Assembly (NCBI RefSeq): GCF_000003815.2
Contig: NC_049985.1
Location: 7,006,066-7,070,065 of the forward strand
DNA from: Branchiostoma floridae
Lineage: Eukaryota > Chordata > Leptocardii > Amphioxiformes > Branchiostomatidae
Length of the DNA stretch: 64,000 bases
Reading direction: 5' to 3'
A program made the translations under genes and the position numbers. Shown here in pieces: positions 14,998 to 60,000 of this stretch; the stretch's first letter is position 1, and each line of letters opens with the position of its first letter. The notes beneath the pieces are model-generated. The model ran no database searches. It was given only the letters and a program-made list of their open reading frames with translations, and was not told where the DNA came from.

Positions 14998-15295
14998 NNN
15001 NNNNNNNNNNNNNNNNNNNNNNNNNNNNNNNNNNNNNNNNNNNNNNNNNNNNNNNNNNNNNNNNNNNNNNNNNNNNNNNNNNNNNNNNNNNNNNNNNNNN
15101 NNNNNNNNNNNNNNNNNNNNNNNNNNNNNNNNNNNNNNNNNNNNNNNNNNNNNNNNNNNNNNNNNNNNNNNNNNNNNNNNNNNNNNNNNNNNNNNNNNNN
15201 NNNNNNNNNNNNNNNNNNNNNNNNNNNNNNNNNNNNNNNNNNNNNNNNNNNNNNNNNNNNNNNNNNNNNNNNNNNNNNNNNNNNNNNNNNNNNNN
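14998..15295. other. Assembly gap (298 N)
   Basis: All bases are N. Any open frame spanning this interval is an artefact. The gap abuts a long foldback element at 15,336-15,554, a plausible cause of the assembly break. Confidence 1.
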
Positions 15296-37457: not shown

Positions 37458-40400
37458 CTACATCCCGTTGTACGCTGGACCTCCCCCTGCCTCGGGGGTG
37501 ACCCAGTTGATGTTCTGACTGGGGTCCTTGATGTCGCATGTCTTGCAGTGCACGCAGTTCTGAGCGTTGATCTGTAGTCTCATCGCCTCGCCGTCCTCCG
37601 TGGGAACATATTCATATACACCTGGGGGAGTAGCAAAGCCAGTTAGTTCTTGTTCTTGTTATGGTACTGGGCAACACCCCTAGTTTGTTGGGGCAAACCA
37701 CCCAGGGCGTAGTGCTGTTGTTTTATTGGCTGCTCCTCAGATGTTGTAATACCTCTTCCTTAAACTTAACGGGGTTACCTTGAAGGGTGGTAGAGTATGG
37801 TAAAGTATTCCAATCGATAGTAGTTCTTGGGAAAAATGAATATTTGGGGCAGTCTTTATTAGTCTTAATGGGTTTGTATGAATTTGGATGATTATGACGA
37901 GATTGCCTAGGGTTCAGCTGCAAGTAATGATCGAATGTTCACTGTGTACATTCATGGTCTGTATATCTAAGGTCGAAGACCTGCCATGAGGTGTATATTG
38001 TGTGCAATAACTACTGATTAATGAAATCACAGTGAGCCAAGTAAACAAGGTGATTTTATGAAGTCCTTATAGAAAATGACAAGGTCTTAGGTCAGCATAT
38101 ACACAGAGGAAGAGGCAGAGGTTCAACCTTCCTGTCCACTTTGATTTCATAATGAAGGCAATTTTTTTTTTCTCCATACGCATCAATTTGGGTTGCCTAG
38201 AGGATGTCATCTGTATAATCAAATCAGTATGGCTTAACAATGATCACCTGGACAAAAATTGAGAGGCAAGCAGAAGAATAACCAGTAACACTTACCAGCA
38301 GGACAGAACCTCTGCTCAGGCCCGTCGTATACGCCCAGGTTCTGATTGACAGGAACTGTGTCGTCCATGAGGGTCAAGTGCGCTGGTTGGTCACCCTCGT
38401 GGTTGGTGCCGCTCAGGGCTACCGATGACAGCAGGTCGAAACTGATCTTATTGTCGGGTTTGGGGTACTCGATGGGCGTGCACTCTGACGCAGGCTTTAA
38501 CCTTTTGTAGTCTGCACCTGTAGGATTCAGTAGTGTAGGGCTTAGTACACAACAGGTTATGTTTATGACAATTAGACATCCATGAAAACAATACAGCTTA
38601 AAAGGAAACAATTCAATCTCTACAACAGGATCAAATTTAGAGATTCCCTTTCGGAGATTCACTTTCCAGTTGTAGAAATTGAATCTTAGAAAAACAGGCA
38701 GTTTGACCTGAAATCATGGTCAAAACTGCCAAAGAAACCACTCAGAAGAGAAGACAAAATCTGGTCTATGTGGACAGTTGGTCACTATAGACAAGATGCT
38801 TAATACTTGTGTCAATGGGGAAATTATCATTAGCCAGGTGGCCCTTATGTAGAGGTGGTCACGTGTACAGGATTCACCAAACAACAGTTGTATGACAAAC
38901 TAGAAAGGCCGACATTTGCTTAAGAGCAAATACAGCATATTTCAGCCATACCCCTTCCCACACAACATTGGACTGTTCCAAATCACCCCTGCGCAAAAAT
39001 GGAACATCCTCTTAACAGTACATTATCCCCCAAAGTGGACTGGTATTGTGAATAGATTCCAGGTAAAAACAGAGCTTGCTTCTATTTTTCAGAAAATGAG
39101 AATAATCACAGCTTCCATTCAGAAAATTTTCATCATGACTGAAAATTGTTGAATGACTTCATGTAATGTCATTAACAATTTTCAGTACGATAACAAGGTG
39201 TAAGTTTTAAAAAGTATAAGCTCCTTGTGATGTGGGTACATTTATTATTGCAGTGAACTTTTTTTATTCAAGTAGGGCATACGATTTAATAATTATCAAG
39301 CAGGTGCAGGTACTGTAGGAGCGTTTGTTTTCTTCAAGCTGTAAAACTGTTAAACTGTTTTACTTTGTATGCAATCAGCCATCGAGCCTATTCTTATTTT
39401 AGTTTAACAACTTCCTGCCAGACCCGGAAGATACGATTGAACCTTGTTCGAGAATTTACTTTCGTCTGTCTGGTCAGTCTGTTCATACCCTGGCGCTGAG
39501 AGTGTTTTATTGGGCTGAAACTCTGGCAGTTTAAAGTTACTTACAATTTAAATGTTCAAAGTTTATGTCAAACAACAACAGCACTAGGAAATGTGGCCAC
39601 TATAGACAGGTGGTCACTATAGAGAAAATGCTGATCTATTGGCTAGGAGCCATACGTTACACATGATTTCAGTACACTGATCATTAATCATATAAACATT
39701 GCACAGGTAAGCCAATTGTTTAGATGTACAATTAAGTTCAAATAATTCTGAAGAGAAATATTGATGAGAAAATAATCATTCTCGCCACTGTCTAACTTAT
39801 AATTACGTATCAAAACTAAACGCAGATTTTCTAACTAACGCACCTTTCGCTGACTTCATCAAAGGACCGCCGGCTATCAATCAAACACGGCTGTTGATTA
39901 GACTTAGAGTTTCAAACAGTCATGTGCTGTGTGCCAGTTGACAGCGAACTTCATGCTACGTGATGTTTTACATTGCTTGGACCTTCTTTCCTACAGCGGT
40001 GCTTCTACAAAATATTTAGACTGTAACACTGAGTCCCACATGTTTTATAGAATAGAATTTGACGCAGAACAGCGTTTTTTGCTGGGTATTTTTCTTGAAA
40101 CATGTCCGTGGGAATATCAGCTAGGCGGCGACGTAGGGATATCAGATCGTCAACAAAAGTCGCACGGCGGCTAACGGTGCAGCGAAGATACTAGCGCTAT
40201 AAATAAGCGCTTCAACTAAGGATGGCAACCCGTACAATATTTTTGTATACTGTTGAGCTAAGTAAAGTTTGTTGTTTATGAGGTTTTAGTTGTCTTTGAA
40301 GCTTTGACCCGAAATATTTTAAAGTCAAACTGCTGAAGAGAAGTAAGTGACTGCTACGATTATCGTAGATATGGCCCTAAAAAACTGATAAAAGAAGCCT

Positions 40401-43400
40401 TCTCAATAGTCTAAAATGCAAGAGCTTCCGGGGGGCTTCGCCCACCTGGGTCCCCCCCACAGTGGCCCTACCCCTGGACCCCGCCAGGGACATTCGGCGG
40501 CCCACGGACCACTGTCCGACGCTTTGAAAAAATCCTGGAGAGAAGTCTGTACGGCCTGAGTCTTCAAGTTAACGTATTGTGTGGTCCCGCTTATGAATAT
40601 TAATTAGCCTTCGCTTTCCTCTTCGCTGATTGGCTGAACCATTAATTGAATTAACTCTTCCTGTCGGCTAGACGCAGGTGCAGATGTCGGCTCTGTGGGG
40701 TGAACGTCCGAAAGGTCATGGCATGGAGAACGAAAGAAAACCAATTTCCCCTAAAAAAGTGCTGTAATTAAGCCTTTTACAGTACTTTATGCCAAAAATT
40801 TTACTTGGATCATTTTACCAACTATCTTATGCCTATCTATACCAAATGTTACTCATACCAGGGTACAGGGGTGCAAAATATACCGTTATAAGACCGTCAA
40901 CAACAGTCGCACGGAGCTAACAGCGCAGCGAAAATACCATCGCTAGCGTTTCAACTTCGGATAACAAGTTATAAGTACTGTTGAACTCAGTAACGTTAAA
41001 GTTTGTGTTTAGTTGCCTTTGACGGTTTGACCTGAAATAGTGTTACGCTAAACTCCTGAAGAGAAGTTAAGTGACTGCTGCGATTATCATAGATATGCCC
41101 CTAAGAACTGATACAATATAAAGCCTTCTGAATAGTCTAAAATGCGAGAGCCTTAGGCGGGCTTCGCTCCCCCTGGCGGGAACACTGCTATATACGGGAT
41201 CATGAGGCCCCGCTTATGAATATTAATTAGCCTTTGGCCTCCTCTTCGCTGATTGGCTAGGTCTTTGATTCAATTAACTCTCCGGCTGACGCGCACAGGT
41301 GTGGCTCTGTGCGGGGTCACGGAAGGTCACGTCAGGAGGCCAAAAGAAAACAAATTTCCCCTCAGAAAAGTGCCAAAATTAATCATTTTAAAGTTATGTC
41401 AAAAATTTTACTTGAATCTTGTTACCAAGTATCTAATGCCTATCTATACCAAATTTCAGGTCATTTAATTGTAATACCAGGGTACAGGAGCCAAAAGTGT
41501 CCTTTTTTGGTCAAAAATTGGCCAAAAATCGCAAAAATAAGCATTTTGTTGCACTGTACACCAAAAGTGTTACTGAATTTATATGAAGGGATTATCAAGG
41601 CACATCTGTCTTAAATTTCAGCTCATTCGGTTGCAATACCAAGGTACAGGAGCCAAAAGTGTCCTTTTTTGGTCAAAAATTGGTAAAAAAATCGCAAAAA
41701 TAAGCATTTTGTTGTACTGTACACCAAAAGTGTTATTGAATCTATATGGGGGCATTATCAAGGCACATCTCTGTCAAATTTCAGCTCATTTGGTTGTAAT
41801 ACCAGGGTACAGGGGCCAAAAGTGTCCTTTTTTGGTCAAAAATTGGTTAAAAAAATCGCAAAAATAAGCATTTTGTTGTACTGTACACCAAAAGTCTTAT
41901 CAAATTTATATGGGGGCACATCTCTGTCAAATTTCAGCTCATTTGGTTGTAATACCAGGGTACAGGGGCCAAAATATACAGTTTTGGTCTACAATTGACC
42001 AAAAAATCTCAATAAAATCATTTTAGAGGCAGATATGAAAAAGCTGAGAAAAAAGCATCAAGGTATTGGCCCATTCTACCCCTGTGCCAAATTTCAGGTC
42101 ATTCGGTCCAGGAACGGCGGAGATGAATCACTTTGAAGATTTGACAGGAGAAAGAAAGAAGAAACATTACGAATACAATATATTTCACCATACTATGTAT
42201 GGCTGAAATATAATAAAAATCACAAAGAAAATTTATGTCCTTACCTCCGTGGGAGAATGTCCATGGTTCCTTCCCCCTGAGCAGGTAGTAGAAGACTCCA
42301 GTGTAGAGGAGCGTACCATATAGTCCCAGGGGGGAGTGGAATGATGGTCTGACATTTCGAACACTTTTGATTTCCTTCCACACCCAGCTGTCCTTCATTC
42401 TCTGCTCATAGTCATCCACAAACACTCCTACAGCAGAATATATCTTTTAGTTTACTGACTTGGATCTGACATAAAACCAGAGGGCTAGTGTTTGTGGAGG
42501 GCCACACTTTGAGAATGTTTAATTGCAAGGGCTTAACCTGGTGTGCATAGATCAAACCTTACAGTCTGGTCTTATAGCTGTGCCTACTGTGTAAAAAGTT
42601 ATGCCTTGAACCAAAGATAGCTATGATCACCAGTGTGCATCGACTATTTAAAACACAATATTCAATTCATACTTAAAGATAGATAAATTGTATATTACCC
42701 TTCCATTTTCTGTACATAAGTCATTAATTTCAGAATACTGATCATAAAATAAGGTTTTGTAAACAATGCCACACTCACCCTGAGTTTCTGACTGAAGATT
42801 CTCATCTGTAAGTTTATCAAAGATAGCCTCGGCACAGATCATGCCTGACTTCATGGCGTTGTGCGTTCCTTTGATTTTAGGCACGTTCATGAACCCTGGG
42901 CTGCAGCCAATCAGACAGCCCCCTGGGAAAGCCAACTGGGGAATGGACTACGGAATAGAAAATACAACCAACAATAAATTGGTATTCTAAGAAACACACA
43001 GTAGTCATCTGCTTCAAACAAATTGATTCAGCTACTTTCAAGTAATGGTACTTAGTAGCTAAATGATGTAAGAAAAGGTCATGTTACAACAGTAATATGC
43101 TAGATCAATAAAGTCTTCACTTGTTGTAAGTCACCGTTTCAACCAAAGAAACAAGAAATGACAAAATATGCCGCCATTGGCATGAAAATCCAACATACCA
43201 TACGATTCTTTTTGTCTACATAAAGCATATTCATTTCTGAGGAACAGACAACACACTGGTGGGGCCTATAATGTCGAAAAAATGTCTATCGGACAGAAGA
43301 CCCTCCAAAGACATTCCAAAACGGGAGAACCCGAAGGAGACATTTTAAAAACTCAACTACATATTTTTAACCCGTGAAAGACATTTTGTTTACATCCTCT

Positions 43401-46400
43401 CTCAACACGTAAGGAAGGGACTCCCCTCGGAGACCATCCATTATTTAGAACAATAAGTACTCATTAAGTCGTTAGCGTCTTCCTGATAATTAATTGCTCC
43501 CCGCCCTCTGTGAAAGACAAGTACTTTTTGCTTTGTGCCTGCCCCCATGTAACGTCCTTGCTGCCCCAAGCGCCCAGTGATGCCGTAATGCCGCGGCCCG
43601 CCGGACTGCCCGTCTCCGAACTGCCACGGCTAGAGATCGCGTAACCAATGCTAAATGCCGCGGTAAAACCCTTACCTGACAGTGTCCAGTAACTTATGGT
43701 AAAAAAATCCTCGGTCAACTTTGATCGTCGTTGGGACAAGGTGAAGACTTACTTTGTCACTTGGTCAGGCATAAACATCGGATACCGTGACGTTAACAGT
43801 GAAAGTGACTTAACGTTACGTTTGATAGCTGTGAACTGTAAATTTCGTTATGAAAATATGAGTAGATTTTTGTTGATGTTACGTTACATTTTATTGTTCA
43901 CCAGGCTAACGAAACATTAATATTACGCCTGCCTGTCGACGTAAACAAATAAAAATCAACCGAAAACGCGGCAGATAAAACAGGGAAGTCCCGCTTGGAC
44001 CACGCACGCAGCGCTGCGATTCATCATTTGTTTACCCTTCAGGACGGCTTGCTATGCAAATGACTTAGGCATGACGTCACCGCTCCGATTTTCCCCGACC
44101 CAATTGTCGGCAGTCCGAGGAAGAACCGATCTGCCTCAGATTTCCGACAATTCCCATATTTGGAAGTTGGAACACTCGGGAGGATTGTGCAGACGTCATC
44201 TTCTCCTGCAGGACCGTGGGAAGCGGCAAGATCAACCGAACATGCCCCGCCTCCCTGTCAAAATTGATTTATGGGCCCGCGAAAGGCCGGTCTGCGATCA
44301 AAAACCGGCGGGAAAACAGAGTGTGGTGAGGTTGAAAAAGGACCCGGGGCCTCCTTGAATGAACGTTGTTGGTCTGATAAAAGCTCCTTGGTTAGAAATA
44401 CCGTTTTAGCGACAAAGTGCCACACGAAATTACCCTTACAACATACTTAGATTTCAGCTCTTCTTTTGCTCTCGGTTTTAGCTGTACATGTGGAAAAAGA
44501 TTTGGGCACAAGACGAACGATTTGCTATCTTTTCTACGTCCTCCTTTCTTATTAATCTGCGTGTTTCAACTCAGAAATGCTCCAGATAGGTTGAAACCAT
44601 GCAGATGAAGTACTAGAATTAATGAGGTTATATGTTTATGTACTGTTTTATGTGTTAAAGTTGGAGACGCTAACAGCGCGCGCTGAGGAAAACAAAGGCC
44701 GTTTGAAAGCAAAGTGTAGCGAGTTTATTGTGCATCACGTTTTCTTTTGTTATCGATAGCACTCATTGAATAACATATTTGAAAATACTACATGTACTAT
44801 GTTTTTGTATAACATCGTAATATACATTTGTGACGGAGTATTAACAGCTTTTATTAACGCTTTTATACATACAGGTGCGTAGAATAGAAGTGCACAAGGA
44901 AGAATGCTGCAAGCCGACTTGTGTCTAGCCTCCGCCAGGCCCTTCCGACGTGGGTACGGGGATCGAGAAAAAAATCGGAAAGTTGGTCAGGGGAGTCAGT
45001 CCCCGCTAAGGATAATGGATTCCCCTCTGGAGCTGCGCGGCCGACCAACTCCTCTCGTAGCAAAACTCCCGGCCTGGCAAATTATTCTCCATGTAACAGC
45101 CAGCAGAGTTCTACCGAAGTTCTGCCGAAGTGTTTACGTCATTGAATTCTACCAAGGACGTGATATAACGTCCTTGGTTCTACAAGTACTTTGATGGTCG
45201 GGGTAGTCCTAACACTACATTATGACCTTCTTGTTTTTACTAAGGACGTTATAATAACGTCATTGTTTTTACTAACACTGTTCTCCCTGTTCATCGAATT
45301 GTTCCGTTCAATTGATATAATGAATGAATGTACAGGATGTTTGTTTTACCCTTTAGCAATAGCCAAATTAAATGCAAATCAGGGTGAAGTTTGTTCCCAT
45401 TTGCGGCATGGCATTTACAAATATCTTGCTTTCCACTTGGAGGTATTCAGTCCAAAAACATTATGCCGAATTGCATTTCAAGAACACGTGGTGTTTGTAA
45501 TATATTTGTCAGTCGACTTCGCACTCTATATTACTTTTGAACCAATTTTTAATGCCATAGAAAATATCAAAGTTTCCGACTTTTTACTGGGGCCACTGTC
45601 AATAGAGGGCCGGTGCACGCAGCTGGACTGGTACCCTCACGTCGTCAACGTAAACACCGTGATGATTGGCGTGGAACTGTGAACTGGATCATTTGTTTGG
45701 TTCTTCATGCTTATGCCTTGTACGTTTTGTTCATAACATTATGCACATATGGATTAGTTTTAAATTCCGTTTATTCCAATTCGAGATTGCAACATATTCC
45801 CAAGGAGCTTTTATCAGGCCTTGATATTCCTAATTCGGCTATTGTGGACTGTGAAAAGTAGTCGACGACTGGAGGCTGACGGCTGGGTGTACCAACTACT
45901 TTGAAATAATCACATAAATTCTGATGATTCAGAAAGTTTCCTATGTCAAGCCATACCCCAAAATCCGCAGTTTCCTTTTTCTGTTTTATCACAAACCTAC
46001 CGTAGACCTGTAGTAGAATCGTTGTCCGATGCAGCTCAATCCAGTAGGTGACTTACCTTAGTTCTTATAGATGTGTGTTGAAGAGTATCAAAATCATCGT
46101 TCGTGATGGAAATTTTGTTGTGTTTTGTAAATATTTTCCAGATTTATCGATATGATATATGTTAGAGGTTAGTGTGTGTGTATATTAGATATGTATTGTT
46201 ATTCAAACATCAAAACGCGTTCCCAAGTACACATTGGGCTTGTAGTACGTACGTACGAACGTAACATGTGTTAGTAAGTTGTTAGCAAAAGGCAAGTCAA
46301 ACAACCTCCCTGGTCGAATGGATTTACAAAAAAAAACAAAAACAGAACAAACACTAACAAACAGAACTTGACCAAAACAAAATGACAATCCTAAGGATAA

Positions 46401-49400
46401 CACCCAACGGTATGAATAGCTTTTCTCCAAACGTCGTACCTGAAAAACAAAATGAAACATACGAGTTACCAGATGCAACTAATGCTATTTATCAATCTGG
46501 GGCCCTTTGCTAAAATATGGACTAAAATAATCAACTTGTGATACTGTAAAGATGTGTCTGTTCCAGGCGTTTTTGTAGACATGTTGTCTTATTCAATCTC
46601 GGAGGGTGTGAAACAATGGATCTGGATTTGGCGTTTGTTCCACACTTGAAACATTTCTAGACGCAAATCTAGAGGCAGACAGAGGTGTGTATTGTACTTG
46701 TAATCTTGGCCTTGTTTAATTAGATATTTGAGAATGAAAATAAGCACGCGATTTTTTCGACGTTTGGTTTTAAAATGTCGATATGATATCTAAATCTTCG
46801 TATTAACTGCAAGGTCATGTATAAACTGTCAAAAGTCTGTGAAATTGTCTTGTTGTGACATCCATTTTGGTTATTGTCATGCATAGTCACAACCGCGGGC
46901 CCCATTGTCTACAAGATGGAAATACGACGATGGTTGACTTTCCTCTTCTTCGGATCCCAAGCCAAAACAAGAAATCCGGTCAGACCAAAGGTCACTTTGA
47001 CTTGAATTCGTAAATCATGGAGCGAATATACAAATTTTTGTTCGATCGTAATTCGCATTAAGAGATATTTAAAAAAAAATAACACTTTTTCTTGGTTTCT
47101 GAACAGGTTTCGGACAAATCTACGAATTGTTTTCTTAGTTTTCAAACAGTTTTCTTACAAATTTACGATAGCGAATACGAGTAGTTCGTGCATCATTTAG
47201 AAGACAAATGACAATTCAGGCCTCTTTTCAACTTTCTTGCTACCACGGCGTACAGTGAAGAAAACTCGAAGGGTACCGGGAAAAAAAATCTCTGTTTTAG
47301 ACGTACATCGTATATGGAAATGTTGCCCACCGATTGAAGTTCGTATTGAACAAAATACTAGTATTTTTTAAATGATCTGAATGAAGAGGCTGTTACATGT
47401 ACCAAGTCCTTGCATGTACATAGATACTTCAGTCACTGAGCCAGGCACGGGAGACAATGATGAATGTCGAAAAGTATTTGCACAACAAAGAAGGTCAAAG
47501 CAGTCCTTGGTCTTATCAAGGAGGTTATATTCAATGAATATAACCTCCTTGGTCTTATCAAAACAAGTTGCTTTGTTTTTGTCTTCCTATGCATGACACT
47601 GGTTAGAACATGTTTGCGAATTAGCGCTAGAAGACCCTAGAAGAAGGTCGTGAAGATTGCATGCCCCACGACTCTGACCGTTGGAAATGGTTCTAACATA
47701 CCGGCAACGGGAATTGTCTAGCCCCCACCAAGCCTTCATATGGGGGTACCGGGATTGTAGAATTTGGCAAAAAACAACAACGGGAAACTGGCCTGGGGCC
47801 TGAGTCAGTCCACGCAAATGTTAATGATATGTTTCCCCTCTACACGGCCGGCCACTCCTCTGATAACAACTCTCATAGAAACGCTAAAAAAAAAACTTAG
47901 CACGGACGCCACTAGAACGTGAGATGGGTGATATTAGCCCTTGAAATATTTTTTTTAAATCCTATAAATTGCCAATCAAACATAAGACGTTTATATTTTT
48001 CAGAAACGTGAAATTAATACGTTGATAATAATTACGTGGAGAATTTTTAAACAGATACACAATGTTTTTCTTTATCGCATTACTCAATTAACTGATATTT
48101 CTGGCGCTAGCGCACGTGAGGTAGACTCAAGCCCGCTGCCAATCACGTCCTAGGAACCGCCGGTCCTATAGCAACCATCTCCGCTTTTCCCGCCTTTGTG
48201 TCGATCGGCGTGTCTGATGTTGTTTCAGAAGTGACGGCGAAAAGGTCCTCAGCAAGAATATTAACCTGATTTTATTTTCAACGGTGATATCATGCGTGAG
48301 AACTTGAATATGAGTAACTTAGTCTTCGATTTGATTTGATAAAAAGCAATGTTTTTTTTTGCCTGAATGTACGTAACACTTGTTGTCCACGCCTGAGAGC
48401 AGCGCGGCTTTGTCCACGCCGTATGAGTGCCGTGCGGCGCTGGACTGACGAGGAAAAGTAGTTTGTCAACTTGACTGTTGAATGTCATATATTGTACCAA
48501 AATAAAGAGAAGAGACAAGATATTTGAAAGACATTCTTGTAACATTCAAAATACATTCAAAGGACTGTCACATTGTCATGCCGTGGGACGGTGTCAAACA
48601 GCCTGACGACATAACGCCCGGGTGAGTGGGACGCAGATAATGAGCTTTATTTCCAACGGCAAATACGGACAATATATTTCGGGAACACGGTAGATTTAAT
48701 AGTTACTTGTACAGATATTTTACGGAAATGCAAAAAAAAGGACAGCCGCTCGGAGTATCACTCAACTTCGACGCCTAGGCAAGGCATGGCATGGCATGCA
48801 GGAAACGATCACCTGCGGATATTTTTGCATGACAACTCAGCAATCAGCGCTGCTCCCACAAAGGATATTGGAAAGACATTCTTGTAACATTCAAAATGAA
48901 ACTGAAAAGGACAGTCACATTGTCGCATGTGGCATCAAAGGGCGAACATGGCATAACGTCTGGAGAGTGGGATTTTACCAAATACTTTGTAAGTCCAGTT
49001 TATAGTTTGGAAGTTTGTGTAACGCTCCGTTGCCTGCCGTGGCGGTCATTTTACACGGCCTAGTGGCTTCAGATCACGCACATGTTTAATAGGAAGGTGA
49101 AATGAGGACAGATCGCTCGGTGCCGTGTAGGGACACCGATCGCAAAGGAACGTCTCTCGCGGTGCGCGGTCACCAGCTAATAAATTGCCGCCCCTCCATT
49201 TTGACTGGGCCAGTCAGTCAGGCGGGCCGCTCGAAGCGTATTCAGGCTACTAACGGGGGCGTGATTTTCGTTAACATGCGAGTTTTCACAGTTTTTCTCC
49301 AGACATTTGGAAGACATTTTTCTGAACAATGGAAAAAACAACACACACGCCCTCCCAAAAAGACCCTGTAAAGACATTCTCGAACCCCAGAAAATACATT

Positions 49401-52400
49401 CTTGGAAAATGTCTCGAAAATATCCGGAAAAATCAGAATGTCTTTGGAGGGTTTTCTGTCCGATTGACATTATTTCGACATTATCGGGCCCACCAGTGAC
49501 AGAACTTATATGTCCAAGACCTATTAGTATATATGTATATACAAAGCAGTAGAATCTGAAGTTACCTGGTACCCTCCCTCGTTGAGGGCCCTGGCCCCAT
49601 ATGCTATCCTCTTGCCCCCCTCAAAAGTAGGCTTGATTGCAGGGTGGTGCTTCCATCTCTGGAACTCTTTAAATGGACTGATGTAAGGGTTGGTGTAGTC
49701 CAGACCAAGCTAGGGAAATAGGAAAATAAACAAATTGTATAACTAAGTACAAAACCAACACTTGGCATAACTGGGAATTTTTCAGCTCATACGAACAGAC
49801 CTGTCTATTGCAGACTTGTCTACTGCTATTTCCGCTATGTGACATTAGGGACACATGACTGCAGCAAAAGGTTGTAAGTGCCAGATAACCTGTGTTGAAC
49901 AGAGATGGGGGTCGACATAGGTTACCTGGCATTAATGGCCTGTTGCTACAGTCATGTGTCTCTGACGTCATCTCCCACAAGCAGCAGGAAGTGAAGTTCA
50001 GAGTTGCCAGCATTAGAAATTCATTAACCTTGTTTTGTAGGCATAGCTTCTCTAAATAATTACTAAGTAACAAAACTTTGCATTGCTAGAATGTTACAGT
50101 GTAATACTAACCACATATCCAACAGAGACCAGAGGTTCTCCCTCTCCAAGATGGTATATGAAAGATCCACCGTATGTCATTCTGTCCTGTAGAGAGATAG
50201 AAATACAGAACAACATGTAAGCTTGAGCTAGGTCATGTACATAGCTTTGTTCAAATAAATAACCAGCATCCATTCAAAATATCATTTATCAAACTTAATA
50301 CTTTGGATCATTAATGTGAGTCCCATTTAACTATTACTATCAATAAAATAGCTGACTGCAATTAGACAGAACAATGAAATACTCTAGATCTTAAAAATTT
50401 GTGCTGGGTTAATCTTAGCCTGTTACCTCTTTACCACAGATTCATGACACCATGAACCTGTGTTTCCAACATTCTACTAACTGTACTACAGAATTGTTTT
50501 AAATGTGAACACAACCTTCTACCACAAACCTAAGCTCCAGCAAAAAATAACGAATTCACAGAAAATGGTCAACATACCAGCGGCCACCCCACAGTGTGCT
50601 CCACTCTTCCTGGCTTGTGCTGAGCTGGGTCAATCTCCCATAACTGTGAACAGTACATAACAATGTTAACTTACAACACACTGAAAACTGTGCTGCTAAA
50701 AGCCACAATGTCTCAACACAACCTTACATGTGGGTTGTACCTTTACCTAAGTCTTAGGAAAGTGAGTCAATAAATGAGTACCGGATTGCTAGCTGTGTGA
50801 GCACTGCCATCTTTGATACCTATAAGTACTGCAATACACAATTTTCATGCCGACTATAATATATGCAGTACAGGCGAACCTTCACCATTTTGGGTGTCGC
50901 AACACCATATGTAGTCTAAACGAAAATCAGATCTGAAGCAGAACACCAGCACTCTGGTAGAAGATACTCTTGGTTTGTTATCCACTATCCACTCTTTCTC
51001 CTTCCACCTACATGTAATACCTCGTCCCCAACCAATGTAAGGTACCCATTTTTACACCTGGGTGGAATGAGGTCACATTGTCTACCCATGACCTCTAAGT
51101 CTTGTGACCACTAAACTTGCCATTCCACACAACATGCATTGCTCAGTGGAGGGACTATGATGCTGCTGATTGTTTCCTAACATTACTGTAATTATTATTG
51201 ACCCATTGCCTTACCTCCTTCAGCCCAATGGCATATGTCTGAGGTTCACAGTTCTTCCTCAGGTCCATCTTCTTGTAGAGTTGTTTGGCGAGGTGTCCAT
51301 GGCAACCCTCGGCAAAGATCACCACCTTGGAGTGGAACTCCATACCACGTTCAAATGAATCCTGGTCGGGAAACAGAAAAAAGTCAAACCAGTCAAGCTT
51401 ACTGCAGAGCTACTCTTCCTTGCAAAATCATAACACCATCAAATGTACTACATAACTACTTAACTACAAATTGTTTCAACTTCAACTTCAAAATACAGTG
51501 AAAACTTTTTTTCCTACCCTGAAAATAAATGATAAAAACACCCAGAAATTACATAAATTTTCAGTACCTTGGGTGCACCATCCTTTCCAATGCCCACATC
51601 GCTTGTTGCCACACCCTTCACACTGCCATCTTCATGGTATAATACCTGGAGTAGGAGTTAACAGTTTGTATTATAATACCTTCCCAACTACATTGCATAT
51701 AGAACTTTGATCCCTTGTTTAAATTACAAAGCAATACCATTTATGTGTCTACTAATGAATCCAGAGTCCCAGGCAAATAGATTTCTCTTGAAACTTATTC
51801 AGAAAGAGCAACAGAGATATCTATTTCAGGATGAAAGTATGGGAGGAAAGACTGGAACAAACTACATGCATCATATTCTGATGGGAAATCTCCCAGTTCA
51901 GTTCTTTTATCATCAGAATATGCTGCATCTCTGAAGATAGAAGCCTTCTACATTCCCAAACCTTCAATACTGATGAAAATTCGAGCCATGACTCCCCAGT
52001 TCTATGTAATGGTATGGTCCTATGGCATCATCCCTACCTCTGTAACAGGGCATCCTGGGTAGATTTCCACCTCCAGCTCCTCTGCCTGTTCACCCATCCA
52101 CCGTACAAAGTTCCCCAGCCGCACCACATAGTTCCCAGTGTTGTGCATCGGAAGCCCTGGAAGATTGAAATATTGTCTTAAAACTTTTGACAACCTTACT
52201 CTACCACAAACTTAAGTCATATGAATCATGCTGAAATGCTAGTGCATGACTACTGTACTACAGAATTGTTTTATCCCCCAAATCTAAAACACCACAAAAA
52301 CTCCTAGTCCCTCCTACCATCAAATGATACCATCACTAACGTTAACAAATTTACAGTACATGGAGTCATCTATCTATTCATTAATCTTGTATGGTCGTCC

Positions 52401-55400
52401 CTTCAGTTTTCGAGAAACTGATTTACTAAGAATTACTATGTAAAGTATTCTCTGCAACTAACCAGAGATAAAACTTTAATACAAATTGCAACTGGTTATC
52501 ACAAACAAAATTGCTTTTCTGGCAAATTGCACTTGACGACTAGCTTCCTTTTCTGACATAACAATGACTGCAACTATTACCTTAATTCTAGGTTCATCAT
52601 ATTAATGCATCAAAGCTTTGTGGTTCAACAATACTATCTTAACTTGATTTGCCAAATATTTACAGCAGATGCAATCTTGTACATTACAGCTGAAAGCTTG
52701 GCAGGGCAGGGCAGGATGTCACATACACATACACACCTGGTAAGATGGGAACAGGAATGCTACGCTTCTCAGTCAGAAACAAGAACTTGTCCTCTGTGAC
52801 GGGCGTATGTAGGGGTGCCTGCAGCAAAGTTGGGGAGAAGCAAAACAGGCAAGCGCTATCAAAATCACATGCTGCAACAACTCTTTTCTACTTACCTTTG
52901 ATGATGAATGCTGAGCTGAAATCCTAACATGTTAAAGAGTTACTAAAGCCCAAGGGGGGCCCAGGAGATGCCGTTTTTCTTAAGAACAAATATTTCTTAA
53001 GTAGGCTTCTAAGTTTTCTCAAAAGATAAGAGAGTCGAAATCTGGAGATTTTGATACTTTGAGACTGTACTGTAGTGTACATAGTATCAGCCTTCAGTAT
53101 TGTTTATATATAGGACCACTGGACCAGTGATCAGTGAAGTATATCAAAGCTAGAACAGGATGGATACCAGGCTAAAAAGTCAGTCCTGGACCAATCCCTT
53201 AGCCCCCTTAGGCTTTCTTGGGAAAGGAATGAAAGCAGCAGTGTCAATGACATAGCAGTGCGGATGCGGGTATGGAAGCAAGCTCGCTTTCTAGCCAAGG
53301 CCTTCCATACCTACCTGGAAGAATAGGGATGGGAATCTTGTACTTTTCAGTGAGTAGATTGAATCGGTCTTCTGTCACAGGGGTATGCATTGGTGCCTGT
53401 TATGTTGAAAGAATTTGCAGAATGTGGATGAAGGTTAGACATCCAGGTAAAAAGATACGCAAGTGAATAGTTACTCAAGCAACTGATAGATTTTGAAAAA
53501 AGTCAGATCAATGTTTCAGGTATCATCTACTACCTCTTGTGACTGACTGAACAAGAGCTGTTGTCCAGTGGATATTTTCAGAAATGGTTTTCAAATCTTT
53601 TATTTTCTGTCAGAATTTTTGCACAAGATAGAAGCCCTTAGATCATCATATGCTGTAAAGTACTATGTAAATTTGTGCAAATGATTACAGTAGGTGAAGA
53701 GTGCATAAGCGACAATGAATGCAGATGACATACAGAGATAAAACCAATCTTCCGAGCTACAGACTAAAATACAAAACAAAATCAATGTCAAACAATTGTT
53801 AAAGAATATGCTACCATAGGCAATCACAAGCTATCAGAAAATGCTTGAAAGAATTCTTACTGAAAGAAACAAGACTTTGAAAACATTTACATTTGTATCA
53901 TGTGCTTTACACAGAGGAGATGAGGTAGCACATACAGCGTGCTGAAATGATTTCATTTCATGAAGTCCATCACAAACAAGAAACAATTATTATCTTTTTT
54001 GATTGATCAATCCATAAATCTATTGAATTTTTTTTACTTCTGACAGCAGTCTATTTAGTGTTACCATTAATAAAATACACATTAATAATGGACATACAGT
54101 CAAATCTGTCCAAGAAGATCACTCAGCGGAAGGGTGGTCGCTATAAGCAGGTTTTTTATGCTTGTGTCAAGGGGAAAATTATCTAAGGGACCATCGAAAG
54201 GTAATCATATTGGCCTGGTTGTCTTTGTATATGTAGAGGAGGTGGTCACTTGTAAAGGTTTGACTGTAATCAGTGATAGACCAACCCATCACCCCATCCA
54301 CCATGGTCAAAACGAGAAAAAAAAATAAGAGACTGTTTGACAGACATTCAACCACTCTCCTATCTATTGGCCAAACTGTTGATCGTCATGGTATCATTGG
54401 TTGAATGGTAATGGACAGCCAGGATTGGTCCATTGTTTAATAAGAATAGGAGGTTTAAATGTCTTACTCCTCTGTCCTTCCAGTCTGGTATGAGCTCATC
54501 TAGCGCATGTGGTTCCAGACAGGCTCCTGATAATGTGTGCAGACCTGGGATGGAAGAAAGGAGACTCAATGTAGTCTGCTCTGTAGTTTGCAACATTATA
54601 TTAGCAACAGTATTGCATGTTACACAATTTTCTTTCAACAAACAGCTAAGTCATGATCTCTGTAGTAGCTTTTCAAAGTAGCTAGTGGTAATGCAATGCA
54701 TGTTTTCAGTCAAGCACATTGGGTCACTCCTACTCTTCTCAAAAAGTGTGCTGTTTTTTTATATATGCAAAGGTCTGAAGTTCTGAACCTTGAGGCTGAC
54801 CCCTGAAGCTCCCTCATACACGGGGCCATCGGCTTTACTTCACCATCCAAAATGATGAATGCAATCCTTTATAACTTGTTTGAGCTGGGGCTGATCCTGG
54901 GATCCAATCCCAACCAGTGAATCCATAGAATTGGATCATTATGGCCAAACACCAGATTTGCAAGAGATACTGCTTTTAACAAAGGGACTGCAAGAACAGT
55001 GAGTCATAACCTTACATCTGCTTGGAGATGCTACTTACCCACTTCCACAGCCTTCTCCAGTACCAACACCCTCAGTTCCTTCTCCTGTTGCTGGGCCAAC
55101 TGCTTCAGTCTGATGGCGGCTGACAGTCCGGCTGGCCCTGCCCCAACAATACACACATCCACCTCATCTGATACTCTCTCCATATCAACATCTACAAACA
55201 AAAAACAAAAACATCTTAAGGTTAGGGTCAGCCTGTATACCTGCAGTAATTGAAAATATTGCTAGGGGTCTCAAATCACCATGTTTCACATACCAAAATT
55301 CCTACAAATCCATTAAAAGGATCTCCAGTTATGGGACAGCTGTGAACACACAAATATAACTAAAATATAGCTTCATTGGAGGTGATCCTCCCTCTCAGAG

Positions 55401-56834
55401 GTAATACATGAAGAAATACATGACAAACAGTAAGTACAAACTGACCCGTCCATCTGGTGTCCTTGTCTCTCGGCATGACTGACCAATGTGTGGTGATCTT
55501 GGGAGTGGCAGCATTGTTGGTGCAGAACAGACGCACCCCCGCTCTGGCAAACCGGCCAGCTGGAAAGGAGACAGAAAACATTTCAAAACTAGAAATGAGC
55601 TATTCAAAGGAGTGAACATTTTATGTTGTAATACAATGTAACCTCTAGTAACCTTTGGGACTTGTTGTGCTGTCACGTTACCTCAAGTGACCTTATTCAT
55701 ATCTATGGGTAGATAGACTTTGACATGGTTACATTTGTACATCTTAAACTTGCTGTATTTTCTGGGAAAATTTGTGGAAGTTCAACATCCAAAAAAATTC
55801 AACATATGTTGATGACTCAATGCCACACCTCTGACACACCCATCAAATGGACCAATCACGAATTGGGTTCAAAGTCTATACCAAATAAACCAAAGACCAG
55901 GTACAAGCCAGAAAGGATACTATGGGGTTATGTCAATATTGAATGTTAATGTCACCATCAAATGTAACTTGAAAGCACTGGATTTGTGATTGAGTTTATA
56001 TAATTGTAATGTACCTCAGGTATGTGTGTGTGAAAGGTGATCCAATCTATTAGTTATAATATAAATATACTTGAGGTCAACTACTTCTGAGTGTTCAGAT
56101 TCTTCAGAACAAGACACCTTTCTGAAACGGTGAAAGTACTGGTCTAACTTGCTGATCGGTTTTTCCTCAGATAATGTCCTTGGTTTTTCCCTGTCACGTT
56201 TTGTAACGTCATAGGAGTCATGTGGGTTGGTTGCACATAAATCGTTATACAGTATCTGATCAAGGGCGTATATAACGTCCTTGATCTGAAATCTGATCAT
56301 ATGTTATGTACGCACGCGTAAAATGCATCCACTACAAAAAGATTAAAATTCATTTTCCAGACCTATAATTATTGACGATGCGTTGATTTTTTTCTCGAAG
56401 TGATCGGAGTTGATTTTATAATCAAATCGTCAGGGGCCAATCGTCAGTATGGTTGAGGGATATCATATAATTTTTAGTACCCATTGGCGAATGAAAAATC
56501 ATACGTAGATTGGAACTGTCATTTGGACATGATATTACATAGTTGCTAGTTGCTATCGCTGATTCAAATCTTCGAACGAGAGCTTTGACACGTAGCTTAG
56601 CAGACGAAATTTCTGACTTAGTAAGTTTGTTACACAAAGTTATCGGCAGGTGCTCAAGTTTTAGCGCATTTTCTGTCGTAAAATTACAGCGAATTTACTT
56701 GAATTTTTCGCCAGACGTTCTTGATATCCTTACTGTTCACATGGTATTATCTTTGTGGACTGAAATTACAGCTTTTCGCAGTAGAGGACAGAAAAATACT
56801 CACCTTTCAGTGCATTACCGAGTAACGCCGCCAT
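37458..56834 (-). CDS. ETFDH: Electron transfer flavoprotein-ubiquinone oxidoreductase (ETF-QO)
   Basis: Complete gene, 15 constitutive exon positions: 56,834-56,804; 55,559-55,446; 55,191-55,039; 54,544-54,468; 53,396-53,315 (5a) or 52,818-52,737 (5b); 52,156-52,038; 51,645-51,568; 51,361-51,215; 50,643-50,578; 50,186-50,112; 49,709-49,566; 42,947-42,779; 42,427-42,245; 38,517-38,296; 37,621-37,458. Phases join to 607 aa (human 617). A basic, acid-free N-terminus ([20 protein letters not shown]) fits mitochondrial import. VGAGPAG at ~64-70 is the FAD Rossmann motif; [17 protein letters not shown] and [20 protein letters not shown] are family hallmarks. The 4Fe-4S ligands C551, C576, C579 and C582 each lie ten before the human cysteines. 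The inner-membrane enzyme passes electrons from ETF to ubiquinone during fatty-acid and amino-acid oxidation. A 6.2-kb transposon fills most of intron 11. Confidence 0.97.
37640..37940 (-). mobile_element. 5'-truncated CR1-like LINE tail in ETFDH intron 14
   Basis: A minus-strand open frame (37,923-37,723) reads [20 protein letters not shown], then [14 protein letters not shown], a pattern typical of the C-terminus of CR1/Jockey-type reverse transcriptase ORF2. It ends in a stop and a short 3' tail containing AATAAAACAACAGC and finishing in AACAAGAACAAGAAC, a microsatellite-like LINE 3' end. Everything 5' of the last ~65 codons is missing, the usual result of incomplete target-primed reverse transcription. 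Confidence 0.7.
40140..42110 (+). repeat. Nested tandem repeats in ETFDH intron 13
   Basis: Two levels. First, a unit of about 600-745 bp is present twice (40,140-40,885 and 40,886-41,490): shared landmarks include GTCAACAA.AGTCGCACGG, AATAGTCTAAAATGC, CTTATGAATATTAATTAGCC and ATGCCTATCTATACCAAAT. Second, its end is amplified as a satellite-like array of 150-163-bp units starting at 41,475, 41,637, 41,800 and 41,953 (TACCAGGGTACAGG.GCCAAA), with a fifth related start near 40,857. The array ends in CCAAATTTCAGGTCATTCGG near 42,100. Open frames through the array are repeat translation and not genes. Confidence 0.8.
45151..45177. repeat. 27-bp palindrome, CAAGGACGTTA family
   Basis: ACCAAGGACGT and its exact complement flank a 5-bp spacer. 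Inside the 6.2-kb transposon. A second, slightly degenerate member (ACTAAGGACGTTA..TAACGTCATTG) lies at 45,239-45,266. Confidence 0.75.
47517..47550. repeat. Perfect 34-bp palindrome
   Basis: CAAGGAGGTTATATTCA followed directly by its exact complement, inside the 6.2-kb transposon; a variant of the family with GAGG for GACG. GGTCTTATCAA occurs on both sides. Confidence 0.8.
50997..51072 (+). repeat. Dispersed repeat, copy 2 (first copy at 5,235-5,303)
   Basis: Shares CTCCTTCCACC and GGTACCCATTTTTACACCTG with the copy at 5,235-5,303, followed by GGTGGAATGAGG. It lies in ETFDH intron 8. Confidence 0.5.
52737..52818 (-). CDS. ETFDH: ETFDH alternative exon 5b
   Basis: 82 nt with acceptor TTTGCTGCAG and donor CCAG|GTGTGT, entering in phase 0 and leaving in phase 1 exactly like exon 5a. 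It encodes [12 protein letters not shown], then [15 protein letters not shown]. Twenty of 27 residues match exon 5a; the differences cluster at LF (NL in 5a) and RS (YK in 5a). About eleven of the 20 shared residues use a different codon, so the copy is old and has kept its protein sequence. Its own pyrimidine-rich upstream tract supports a working acceptor. It is the distal copy, nearest to exon 6. Confidence 0.85.
53315..53396 (-). CDS. ETFDH: ETFDH alternative exon 5a
   Basis: 82 nt, acceptor CAACATAACAG, donor CCAG|GTAGGT, phase 0 to phase 1. It encodes [12 protein letters not shown], then [15 protein letters not shown], closer to the vertebrate sequence (TEDRF..LTEKYRIPVPILP) than 5b, so it is presumably the ancestral form. 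496 bases separate it from 5b. Since 82 is not a multiple of three, an mRNA carrying both or neither would be frameshifted. Confidence 0.9.
54095..54268. mobile_element. 174-bp TA-flanked MITE (CAGTCAAACCTGT family)
   Basis: Starts TACAGTCAAATCTGT and ends AAAGGTTTGACTGTA, so CAGTCAAA..TTTGACTG inverted repeats lie on a TA duplication, as in Tc1/mariner-type MITEs. The interior shows the family phrases GGTGGTC..CTATA and GTAGAGGAGGTGGTCACT. Relatives: 60,286-60,540, 63,421-63,576, 38,745-38,880 and a fragment near 39,590-39,630. Confidence 0.75.
56258..56286. repeat. 29-bp palindrome, CAAGGACGTTA family
   Basis: GATCAAGGGCGTA..TAACGTCCTTGATC, near-perfect, in ETFDH intron 1. A lone relative, AATGTCCTTGG, lies about 90 bases to the left. 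Confidence 0.7.
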
Positions 56835-57095: not shown

Positions 57096-60000
57096 ATGGC
57101 GGGGCTTGGCAGAAATTGCATACTTTGTGCCAGAAAATCACTTTTATTTCATCGTTCTGTGGTCAGCTTGACCAGGCTGCAGATACCACCAGCTACAGAG
57201 GTAGTGGTAACACAAGTTAGAGGTACAAAACGATGGGTACGCCCGTATCTACAAACTCTAGTGAACCGAATCAACCGGGAGAATGAGTTGCTTGGCCCCC
57301 TCCCTCCCCAACCAAGGTAGGTCATCAATAGTTTAATATAGAAAAAAGAACAACAACATGTACAGTATTGTTACATGTACCTCGGGAAGGAGGTTCACCA
57401 ACAAGCGTATTGTTTATGGTTATGTACTTGTAACTCAATATCCTTTTGATAGATTTGGGTAGCTTATATTAGCTTGAGATCCCCTGCGTGGAAACATTTC
57501 GGCCCCAAGCAGTATTTTCAGGTACTGCAGCATTGCAGGCTGACACCCTCTTCCTGTAACTTAGTGTAAGACTCCCATCCAAGAACTGTCTGGACCATCG
57601 CGTTGCTTAACTTCCAAGATCGAGGGATCTAGTGTATCCAATGCGCCACACATTAACCCTTAGAGGACGGGGTAAAATTTTCGGCGCATACAGGAATCGT
57701 TGCTAAAATTGTCGGTCCTCAGCGCGCCAACCTACGAACTGTTTGTGGCATGTTAAGATACTTATATTAATGCTAGGTAGGTAAAACTATACATTTTTGA
57801 AAAGCTAAGAACCTGTAGAATATGAATATATCAAGATAAAGACTGTATCTAGTTTGTAAGGAATAATACTGCAAAAAGGGCAGAAAAAATTCTTGTTGAA
57901 GTCTCGAAAAATATTTGAAATGTATATAACATCACCCACAAAGTCTCATAATATTTCAACAAGTCACTGAAAACTATCCTAGACTGCCTTGTTATTATTC
58001 CTGAATCAATAAAAACATCAAACAATGTATGTAAGTTACTGTAACTGTTTTATTCTTGCTAGCAAAGATAGTACCGAAAGCCTTGACCAGTTGTAAAAAG
58101 ATGGACCTTATCAGTGTTCCCCTAATATTTGACCAGGAAAATTTCACCAAAATTATGAGTTGGAGGAAAACCAAAACAGACATTGCTATCTCAAAGTGTA
58201 AATACATGTCTGAACATGCTGCCCTCCCCCATAAGTGAATAAAAACAAATACAAAGCAGAAATTTGGCTGGATCAATAATTTGAAAACAATTTCAGAAAC
58301 TCATGGCCCTCACTCCTTTATAATAAACACCAAAAACACCCACCTACTCCTTTTTCACGGCAAAGAAACCAAACAAAGGCTTGTAAATACTACCACATGG
58401 TACAGGACCGGCAAATGACCGTCAAAATGCCGAAGTTTTTATCAACTTCCAGTGCTAGAAACATCGTCAATCTCTTCCTCAGTGGTGCCACAGCCCCTTC
58501 TACGTTCTTCAGCATAATTGGCAATCAATAAATTGTGATTTTGAGCAAAAAAAACAAGGCAAAAACTCCGAAACTACAGCTTCAACCCTCCCCCATCAAA
58601 GGGGAATCCCCTGCACATGAAAACGAGGCTGTTTCCCGATTCCACCCGGGGAATACCGAGGAATGCCGATAGCCTTGCAAATGAGTTAGTGGGGGAGTCA
58701 GTAGGGGTGGCTGATCGGGCTCAACACAGGAAGTCACCAGGGGTGGCTGATCGGGCTCGAAGGGTTAATGGCATTAACTGATTAAGAAACTCCCTAAGGC
58801 CACAGCAAGTAAATTTTATGGATGACATCCGCGCGCTCATTCATTTTTGCCTGATTTCAGAAAAAAAAACAAGATTTTTTTCTTCTTCAGGGAAGGCTGG
58901 ATAGACGAAAATGGGTAAAGGTTGTGATGTAACCTAATCATTGAATGTAGAATTGACACTAGAGACTCTGTAGCATTGACTGTAGTTGCAGAAGTGAAAC
59001 TTGATAGGTAGTTGTAAGAGTGGCACAACTATGGAAGCTATGAGTGTAGTTGCCAACATGGTTAATGATACCAGTCTACCACACTAGTGTTACTTTAACT
59101 ACACTGGTGCACTTCTTAAATACAGGAATGAATGCCTTGTTGGCTGTGATGCCATATTTTGTCCCTTCAAGTCTTGTTACAACGTATATTTTGAAAATTT
59201 GCCATCTTGTTTTTTTTACCCATCTTGTTTTTTTTTGCCCTATCTCATTATTTTTGCAGTCTGCAGAGGATGTCATCCATAAAATTTACTTGCTGTGGCC
59301 TAAGGCCTAAACCTTTATTTTGCAGACATTTGAAGTCTTTGATTCCTCTACTCTTTAATATTGTTTCTTTCTAGATCATCAAAGATCAACTGGAACTATG
59401 AGAGCGAACTGCATGCCTTTGGGCCTCGCCTGGGAGAGAAGCTGAACCTGAGCACACTTAGGGCTGCTTTTACGGACAGATCATATGTAGAAGAGGTGAG
59501 ATATACTCATGCTGTTACTAGTAGCCTTTTGTTCTCCCTGAACTTGTGGGCTTGCTGGGCCTTCTTTTACTACAGTAAAAATGCATAGAAATATGTCATT
59601 CATGTTTTGGGCCACTAAAAAGTTGTTTTGGACCAGTACTGTAGATTTTTATGTACACTCACTCAGATGCCCTATAGGGCAAGAAATTCTGTTTGAAACT
59701 TGACCAACCTTGTTGCCTGTGAGACCAAGAGGTTACAAATAGAGCAGGGAGAATTTCACAGATAGCATTACAATGAAACTGTAAATACTATATACTAGTA
59801 AATAGCATCTGTCATCTCTTTTAAAGCGGTGGGAAATTGGCTCATCTGTTCTTGTTAGGAAAACTGGTCCAAAGTCGCTTTAACCTGTCATAGTACTGTA
59901 TGAGACTAACATTTTGTTGGTCACCTCAGGAAGAAGAGCGGAGACGAGAGCTGGATCTGCCCCTGGAGGATGTGAAGCTGGACATGCAGGACAACTCCCA

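Follow-up and report, generated by a model that had tools for sequence, protein, structure and literature searches.

A tandem pair of putatively mutually exclusive exons in the ETFDH gene of Branchiostoma floridae

A stretch of 64,000 nt of the lancelet Branchiostoma floridae (NC_049985.1), here referred to as the window, was analysed; exon coordinates are positions in this window. Its minus strand carries the complete gene ETFDH, coding for electron transfer flavoprotein (ETF)-ubiquinone oxidoreductase (ETF-QO), the exons of which join in frame from 56834 to 37458. The fifth exon position is occupied twice, by the exons 5a and 5b. On the genomic evidence these tandem exons of an enzyme central to respiration form a real, old, constrained and in-frame pair, which is very probably used alternatively. 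The gene and the parts of it that bear on the pair are:

37458..56834, minus strand, coding span of ETFDH (ETF-ubiquinone oxidoreductase), 15 exon positions, 607 amino acids with either 5a or 5b
54468..54544, minus strand, ETFDH exon 4, upstream splice partner of the pair, ends in phase 0
53315..53396, minus strand, ETFDH exon 5a, 82 nt, 27 amino acids and the first base of the following codon
52819..53314, minus strand, intron between 5a and 5b, 496 nt, GT-AG
52737..52818, minus strand, ETFDH exon 5b, 82 nt, 27 amino acids and the first base of the following codon
52038..52156, minus strand, ETFDH exon 6, downstream splice partner of the pair, begins in phase 1

The assignment of the gene to ETFDH, made in a preliminary description of this DNA, was borne out. 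The predicted protein of 607 amino acids aligned with ETF-QO of pig (2gmh) over residues 27-607, over which it is the same enzyme as in mammals, with 1073.3 bits for the isoform containing 5a and 1065.1 bits for that containing 5b. PF21162 and PF05187 were above the cut-off in both predicted isoforms, together with FAD-binding families. The latter are located near the N-terminus, followed by a ubiquinone-binding domain at residues 261-356 and a C-terminal 4Fe-4S domain at residues 502-605; the N-terminus itself is a presumptive transit peptide. Genome-wide searches, which covered 513431437 bases in 431 contigs, revealed a single ETFDH gene.

Exons 5a and 5b are each 82 nt long, run from phase 0 to phase 1, are preceded by AG and followed by GT, and are separated by 496 nt, so that the places, lengths, spacing, phases and splice dinucleotides initially described all held. 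Four coding sequences were assembled across the region. With 5a alone or 5b alone the frame was open over 607 residues; joint inclusion of both exons led to a stop at codon 168 and the skipping of both to a stop at codon 173, which confirms that the frame forbids joint use as well as joint skipping. In a leave-one-out matrix scoring, the donors of 5a and 5b obtained 10.12 and 8.19 and the acceptors 6.95 and 6.30, all within the spread of the other ETFDH exons, whose donors score from 0.73 to 11.05 and whose acceptors score from 0.45 to 12.82. Pyrimidine tracts had been noted in front of both copies, but that of 5a is only modest, with 10 pyrimidines in 18 positions (the 15 acceptors of the gene range from 9 to 17). 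The similarity between the peptides of 5a and 5b is far above chance (tblastn, E 1.4e-11 within the window). A genome search with 5b as query, in which the best candidates were scored, found 5a at E 7.6e-7 and matches in two places only at E <= 10, thus no third copy of exon 5 was found up to this value. Second copies of the other ETFDH exons were not found, the next-best second matches having E values of about 0.1 or more. A tandem duplication on the level of the exon is supported. A haplotype mis-join or other assembly artefact was rejected, because the copies are only 65 % identical (53 of 82 nt), the 731-bp region holding the pair occurs once in the assembly, and the 150-nt flanks of 5a and 5b lack similarity above that of shuffled sequences (scores of 20 upstream and 14 downstream, with the 95th percentiles of the shuffles at 21 and 20).

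The peptides of 5a and 5b are identical at 20 of 27 residues, and 11 of these 20 are encoded by different codons, confirming that over half of the identical residues have been recoded. Eighteen of the 29 nucleotide differences between the copies fall on third positions, and 7 of 11 shared four-fold codons differ. By the NG86 method the synonymous divergence (dS) between 5a and 5b was beyond range, i.e., the synonymous sites are saturated, at a nonsynonymous divergence (dN) of 0.25; the contrast between the two values supports the earlier view of long selection on both copies. Among 20000 neutral simulations with 29 random changes on 5a, none ended with seven or fewer amino acid changes and no stop codon, and 44 % gained a stop, although the test loses strength should only a few of the 29 differences have arisen in 5b. 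From the codon divergence, the simulations and the dissimilar flanks, the duplication is old, and both copies look constrained. This constraint touches on an alternative role of the pair as source of a regulated poison product: mRNA of the structure 4-5a-5b-6 would decay and thereby lower ETFDH, and the second copy would be kept mainly for that. The location of the joint-inclusion stop, far 5' of the last junction, agrees with such a role. However, a poison exon has no need of a conserved in-frame protein, and the amino acid sequence of 5b is constrained, hence we regard a poison function as very improbable.

The aligned counterpart of exon 5a in pig ETF-QO comprises the chain residues 103-129, to which 5a and 5b are equally similar, each with 21 of 27 identical residues. 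At the seven sites that differ between the copies, the pig residue equals that of 5a at 113 and 121, that of 5b at 105 and 125, and neither at three sites; 5a and pig both have Tyr121 plus a basic residue at 122. A bacterial outgroup was obtained by keeping 80 ETF-QO loci of 117 relatives found. These yielded 68 distinct exon-5 peptides, a few of them with a gap or an X. The set was fetched with a query of the 5a form and word patterns outside exon 5, therefore any selection bias favours 5a, not 5b. The mean identity of the bacterial peptides was 12.8/27 to 5b and 11.2/27 to 5a. When only the seven sites that separate the copies were counted, 56 of the 68 peptides were nearer to 5b and 6 nearer to 5a, with 6 ties; one peptide per cluster (n = 41) gave 31 nearer to 5b, 5 nearer to 5a and 5 ties. 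M105 and N115 of 5a were each seen in none of the 68 peptides, while the residues of 5b were present as L105 in 54, L115 in 22, F116 in 29 and S122 in 23 peptides. Site 121 was occupied by Arg in 7 and by Tyr in 4 of the 68. BLOSUM scoring by site against the bacteria pointed in the opposite direction, away from 5b, at site 125 and was about even at site 113. The simplest reading of these patterns is that 5b has retained the old family segment and that 5a has moved away. With 27 residues and one vertebrate compared, it is conceivable that the duplication predates the split of lancelets and vertebrates and that vertebrates have lost the b copy.

The comparisons are also relevant for the question whether one copy is a relic, an unused duplicated exon that is open by chance. 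Silent duplicated exons are a known occurrence, and the pair has been read from a genome sequence. Against a relic stand the splice sites, the phase and the open frame, which were kept in both copies despite saturated synonymous divergence, and the 21 pig matches of each copy; the suspected copy, 5b, even has the more typical ETF-QO residues. Since its identity to pig equals that of 5a and it is closer to bacterial ETF-QO than 5a, 5b hardly resembles an exon in decay and is not an obvious relic; that either copy is unused seems very improbable.

We consider it likely that the tandem-duplicated copies of exon 5 are mutually exclusive alternatives which give rise to two ETF-QO isoforms. Exon 5 underwent an ancient tandem duplication, and its copies would now serve as alternatives, with the pre-mRNA spliced from exon 4 to one of them, 5a or 5b, and on to exon 6. 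The predicted products are two full-length mitochondrial ETF-QO enzymes with seven differences in one 27-residue segment; the 5b isoform would carry the segment usual for the family, the 5a isoform a Tyr followed by a basic residue as in pig. Messengers with both exons or with neither would be lost by nonsense-mediated decay, and this decay together with a splice-site choice by trans-acting factors would make the use exclusive in effect. The isoforms may differ modestly in their membrane or quinone contact, in stability or in partner binding.

Several points weigh against two exclusive isoforms. Two isoforms had already been proposed in the preliminary description; duplication, constraint and frame logic speak for them, but the splicing-in of both copies and the exclusivity are predictions from the genomic sequence, and the choice by tissue, stage or oxygen suggested there is conjectural. 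With 15 or 10 random hits, 6 % or 59 % of the neutral simulations show seven or fewer amino acid changes without a stop, but only 0.005 % or 0.2 % keep at least 21 pig matches, these simulations beginning from 5a, which itself has 21 matches to pig. The score against pig 2gmh is 8 bits higher for the full 5a isoform than for the 5b isoform. The sign test on the bacterial cluster representatives (P 1.3e-5) is only approximate, as the bacterial sequences are remote and mutually related, and the bacterial-like pattern of 5b could be convergence. In addition, no known exclusivity device was found among those examined, namely steric hindrance, intron type and competing intron pairing as in Dscam. 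An intron of 496 nt is too long for steric exclusion. Mixed U2/U12 introns were not recognized: all sites are GT-AG, and inspection by eye revealed no U12-like donor. The complementary intron elements between the copies that the preliminary description had in mind did not emerge: in a crude test on one species, neither the duplex energy nor the longest exact match of the three whole-intron pairs was beyond 60 shuffles, and one candidate element (I3, 19 nt, 84 %) was dropped as not beyond shuffles. Two local features remained as candidates for a regulation of the pair:

52720..52736, minus strand, UG-rich tract GTGTGTATGTGTATGTG, which forms the donor region of exon 5b, candidate site for a regulator
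53269..53311, minus strand, hairpin whose perfect stem of 10 bp begins at position +4 of the intron following exon 5a, weak candidate

UG-binding splicing regulators exist. When the 127966 overlapping 17-mers on the two strands of the window were scored, 3 attained the value of GTGTGTATGTGTATGTG; among the other 14 donors of ETFDH none did. The tract was noticed post hoc, and no binding protein is claimed for it. The hairpin had a z-score of -2.15 at chosen ends (6 of 200 shuffles) and of -0.76 in a fixed window, thus was not significant, and such stems are common: 10-bp inverted repeats of this kind form 18 clusters in the window, the hairpin included and a run of N excluded. Most likely, exclusivity would rest on regulated site choice combined with the decay of frame-broken products.

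The position of the exchanged segment in the enzyme was derived from published structural descriptions. The segment adjoins helix alpha-2, which packs on the FAD-binding motif, and precedes alpha-3 (PMC3209457). The same paper places two human disease variants, p.Pro137Ser and p.Leu138Arg, in the alpha-2 region (PMC3209457). With the numbering offset of 33 given in PMC10896730, exon 5 corresponds to the human residues 136-162 plus the first base of codon 163. This stretch extends from where alpha-2 ends in the direction of alpha-3, and human Leu138 corresponds to the M/L site at which 5a and 5b differ. Quinone-ring contacts, Tyr271 and Gly273 in PDB numbers, are located elsewhere in the chain than exon 5 (PMC10896730). 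The available parts of open-access papers on the membrane face of ETF-QO contained nothing on the exon 5 segment. In 5b the segment has a hydrophobic F-L-F-L, then K-R-S, in 5a F-N-L-L and K-Y-K. A speculative and rather doubtful extension is that the choice of exon alters the engagement of ETF-QO with membrane and quinone, 5b retaining the old segment of the family with its hydrophobic FLFL patch and 5a having a segment of chordate type in which a polar gap occurs, perhaps in connection with reversed electron flow or less radical leakage in a buried, oxygen-poor life. If such a switch existed, ETFDH would be the third quinone-pool enzyme with a duplicated-exon switch after COQ2 and AOX, and this in a deuterostome.

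Duplicated exons in metabolic enzymes are known from other systems. Pyruvate kinase M has mutually exclusive exons with known splicing repressors. It resembles the lancelet pair as a metabolic enzyme retuned by swapping a duplicated exon, but is glycolytic and cytosolic and its splicing repressors are known. Closer in function is coq-2 of nematodes, annelids and molluscs, in which the exons 6a and 6e select the synthesis of ubiquinone or rhodoquinone (PMC7434440). Common to this pair and that of the lancelet are internal mutually exclusive exons in a mitochondrial enzyme of the quinone pathway, few residue changes that retune a conserved core, and one copy resembling the widespread form; the differences lie in the gene and the step, and in RNA use and function, which have been demonstrated for coq-2, while the lancelet pair is known from its sequence. 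In the oyster, an exon 10 pair of alternative oxidase (AOX) has been described, the novel form CvAOXB of which dominates under air exposure (PMC5589949). Here, too, a tandem-duplicated exon gives isoforms of the same size in a mitochondrial inner-membrane enzyme, one acting on ubiquinol, and an old duplication in one lineage has led to a conserved and a novel copy. In contrast to the internal exon of lancelet ETFDH, the oyster exon is terminal and chosen at the 3' end, and its stress response was measured. An alternative oxidase (PF01786) was observed in the lancelet on contig C16 at 14211991-14216223, with four exon matches, two of which overlap by 14 profile positions.

These examples raise the possibility that the ETFDH pair acts as a switch for quinone type or oxygen supply in the manner of the nematode COQ-2 a/e pair, serving ubiquinone in air and rhodoquinone or a reversed flow at low oxygen. 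It would be a special case of two mutually exclusive isoforms and is compatible with them. COQ-2 (PMC7434440) and oyster AOX (PMC5589949) are precedents of quinone enzymes with a duplicated-exon switch. The rhodoquinone-dependent survival of Caenorhabditis elegans needs ETFDH, and the pocket residue Phe437, a Cys in mammals, contributes (PMC8659336). Exon 13 of lancelet ETFDH (window 42245-42427) has a Phe opposite Cys425 of pig, a column whose equivalence to Phe437 is presumed from the numbering. However, 26 of the 30 bacterial relatives that were selected among the 80 loci also have Phe at this column, which marks an old state rather than a use of rhodoquinone; Cys at pig position 425 looks derived. 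Moreover, exon 5 (lancelet residues 126-152) lies outside the Pfam ubiquinone-binding domain (261-356), and rhodoquinone had, according to the available text of PMC7434440, been described among animals from nematodes, platyhelminths, molluscs and annelids only. Lancelet COQ2 has a single, a-type exon at the homologous place: the exon occurred once in the surrounding 4991 bp, where the tblastn match next in rank had E 0.40, and once in the whole genome, where the corresponding value was E 3.85, so that a COQ-2-type pair of a and e exons is absent from lancelet COQ2 in the locus and genome search. The exon has an Ala where the e-type has Ser, and an Ile where the a- and e-types have Phe and Leu, as placed by a 39-residue spacing. 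A 2026 preprint puts rhodoquinone in mammals (PMC13174367), thus the single-exon result for COQ2 is not final. In sum of these arguments a COQ-2-like switch has a slim chance, and a rhodoquinone link of the pair is a weak possibility. The COQ2 locus, named by a UbiA match and by eye, is located at 6947874-6949864 on the same contig as ETFDH, within about 0.1 Mb, some 56-58 kb left of the window start. An assembly of ETFDH, COQ2 and complex III has been reported in muscle (PMC10896730).

In the partial texts of the open-access literature no mutually exclusive exon pair of ETFDH is reported, most subscription papers and the annotations of genome browsers lying outside this scope; the pair may sit unremarked in some gene annotation. 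Likewise, a duplicate of exon 5 in mammalian ETFDH is not described in the literature examined, a statement on papers and not on genomes. Two other variable exons are mentioned: human exon 2, skippable through a disease variant (PMC4932749), and a cassette exon in the legend of a preprint, with coordinates that span 45 nt (PMC12637576). Neither of them do we take for the counterpart of lancelet exon 5. Etfdh was named as a hub gene, but is not among the splicing events in the available text of PMC8872128, whose gene list is in a figure. For Branchiostoma together with ETFDH, the same literature held only a synteny comparison in a sponge genome study that names ETFDH once. ETF-QO links the oxidation of fat and amino acids to ubiquinone, and mutations in humans cause multiple acyl-CoA dehydrogenase deficiency (MADD), with two of the variants in the swapped segment. 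If the lancelet makes both isoforms, nature would have supplied a pair of enzymes with seven exchanges on which the role of this segment can be studied, and together with COQ-2 and oyster AOX they would suggest a repeated tuning of the quinone pool by duplicated exons in animals.

Two minor observations concern the surroundings of the gene. A run of 298 N at 14998-15295 of the window is an assembly gap or a masked stretch. A short open reading frame on the plus strand at 57096-57317 stands head to head with the start of ETFDH; its sole match, to NfeD, was below the cut-off (E 0.067), and its N-terminus gives the impression of a mitochondrial protein.
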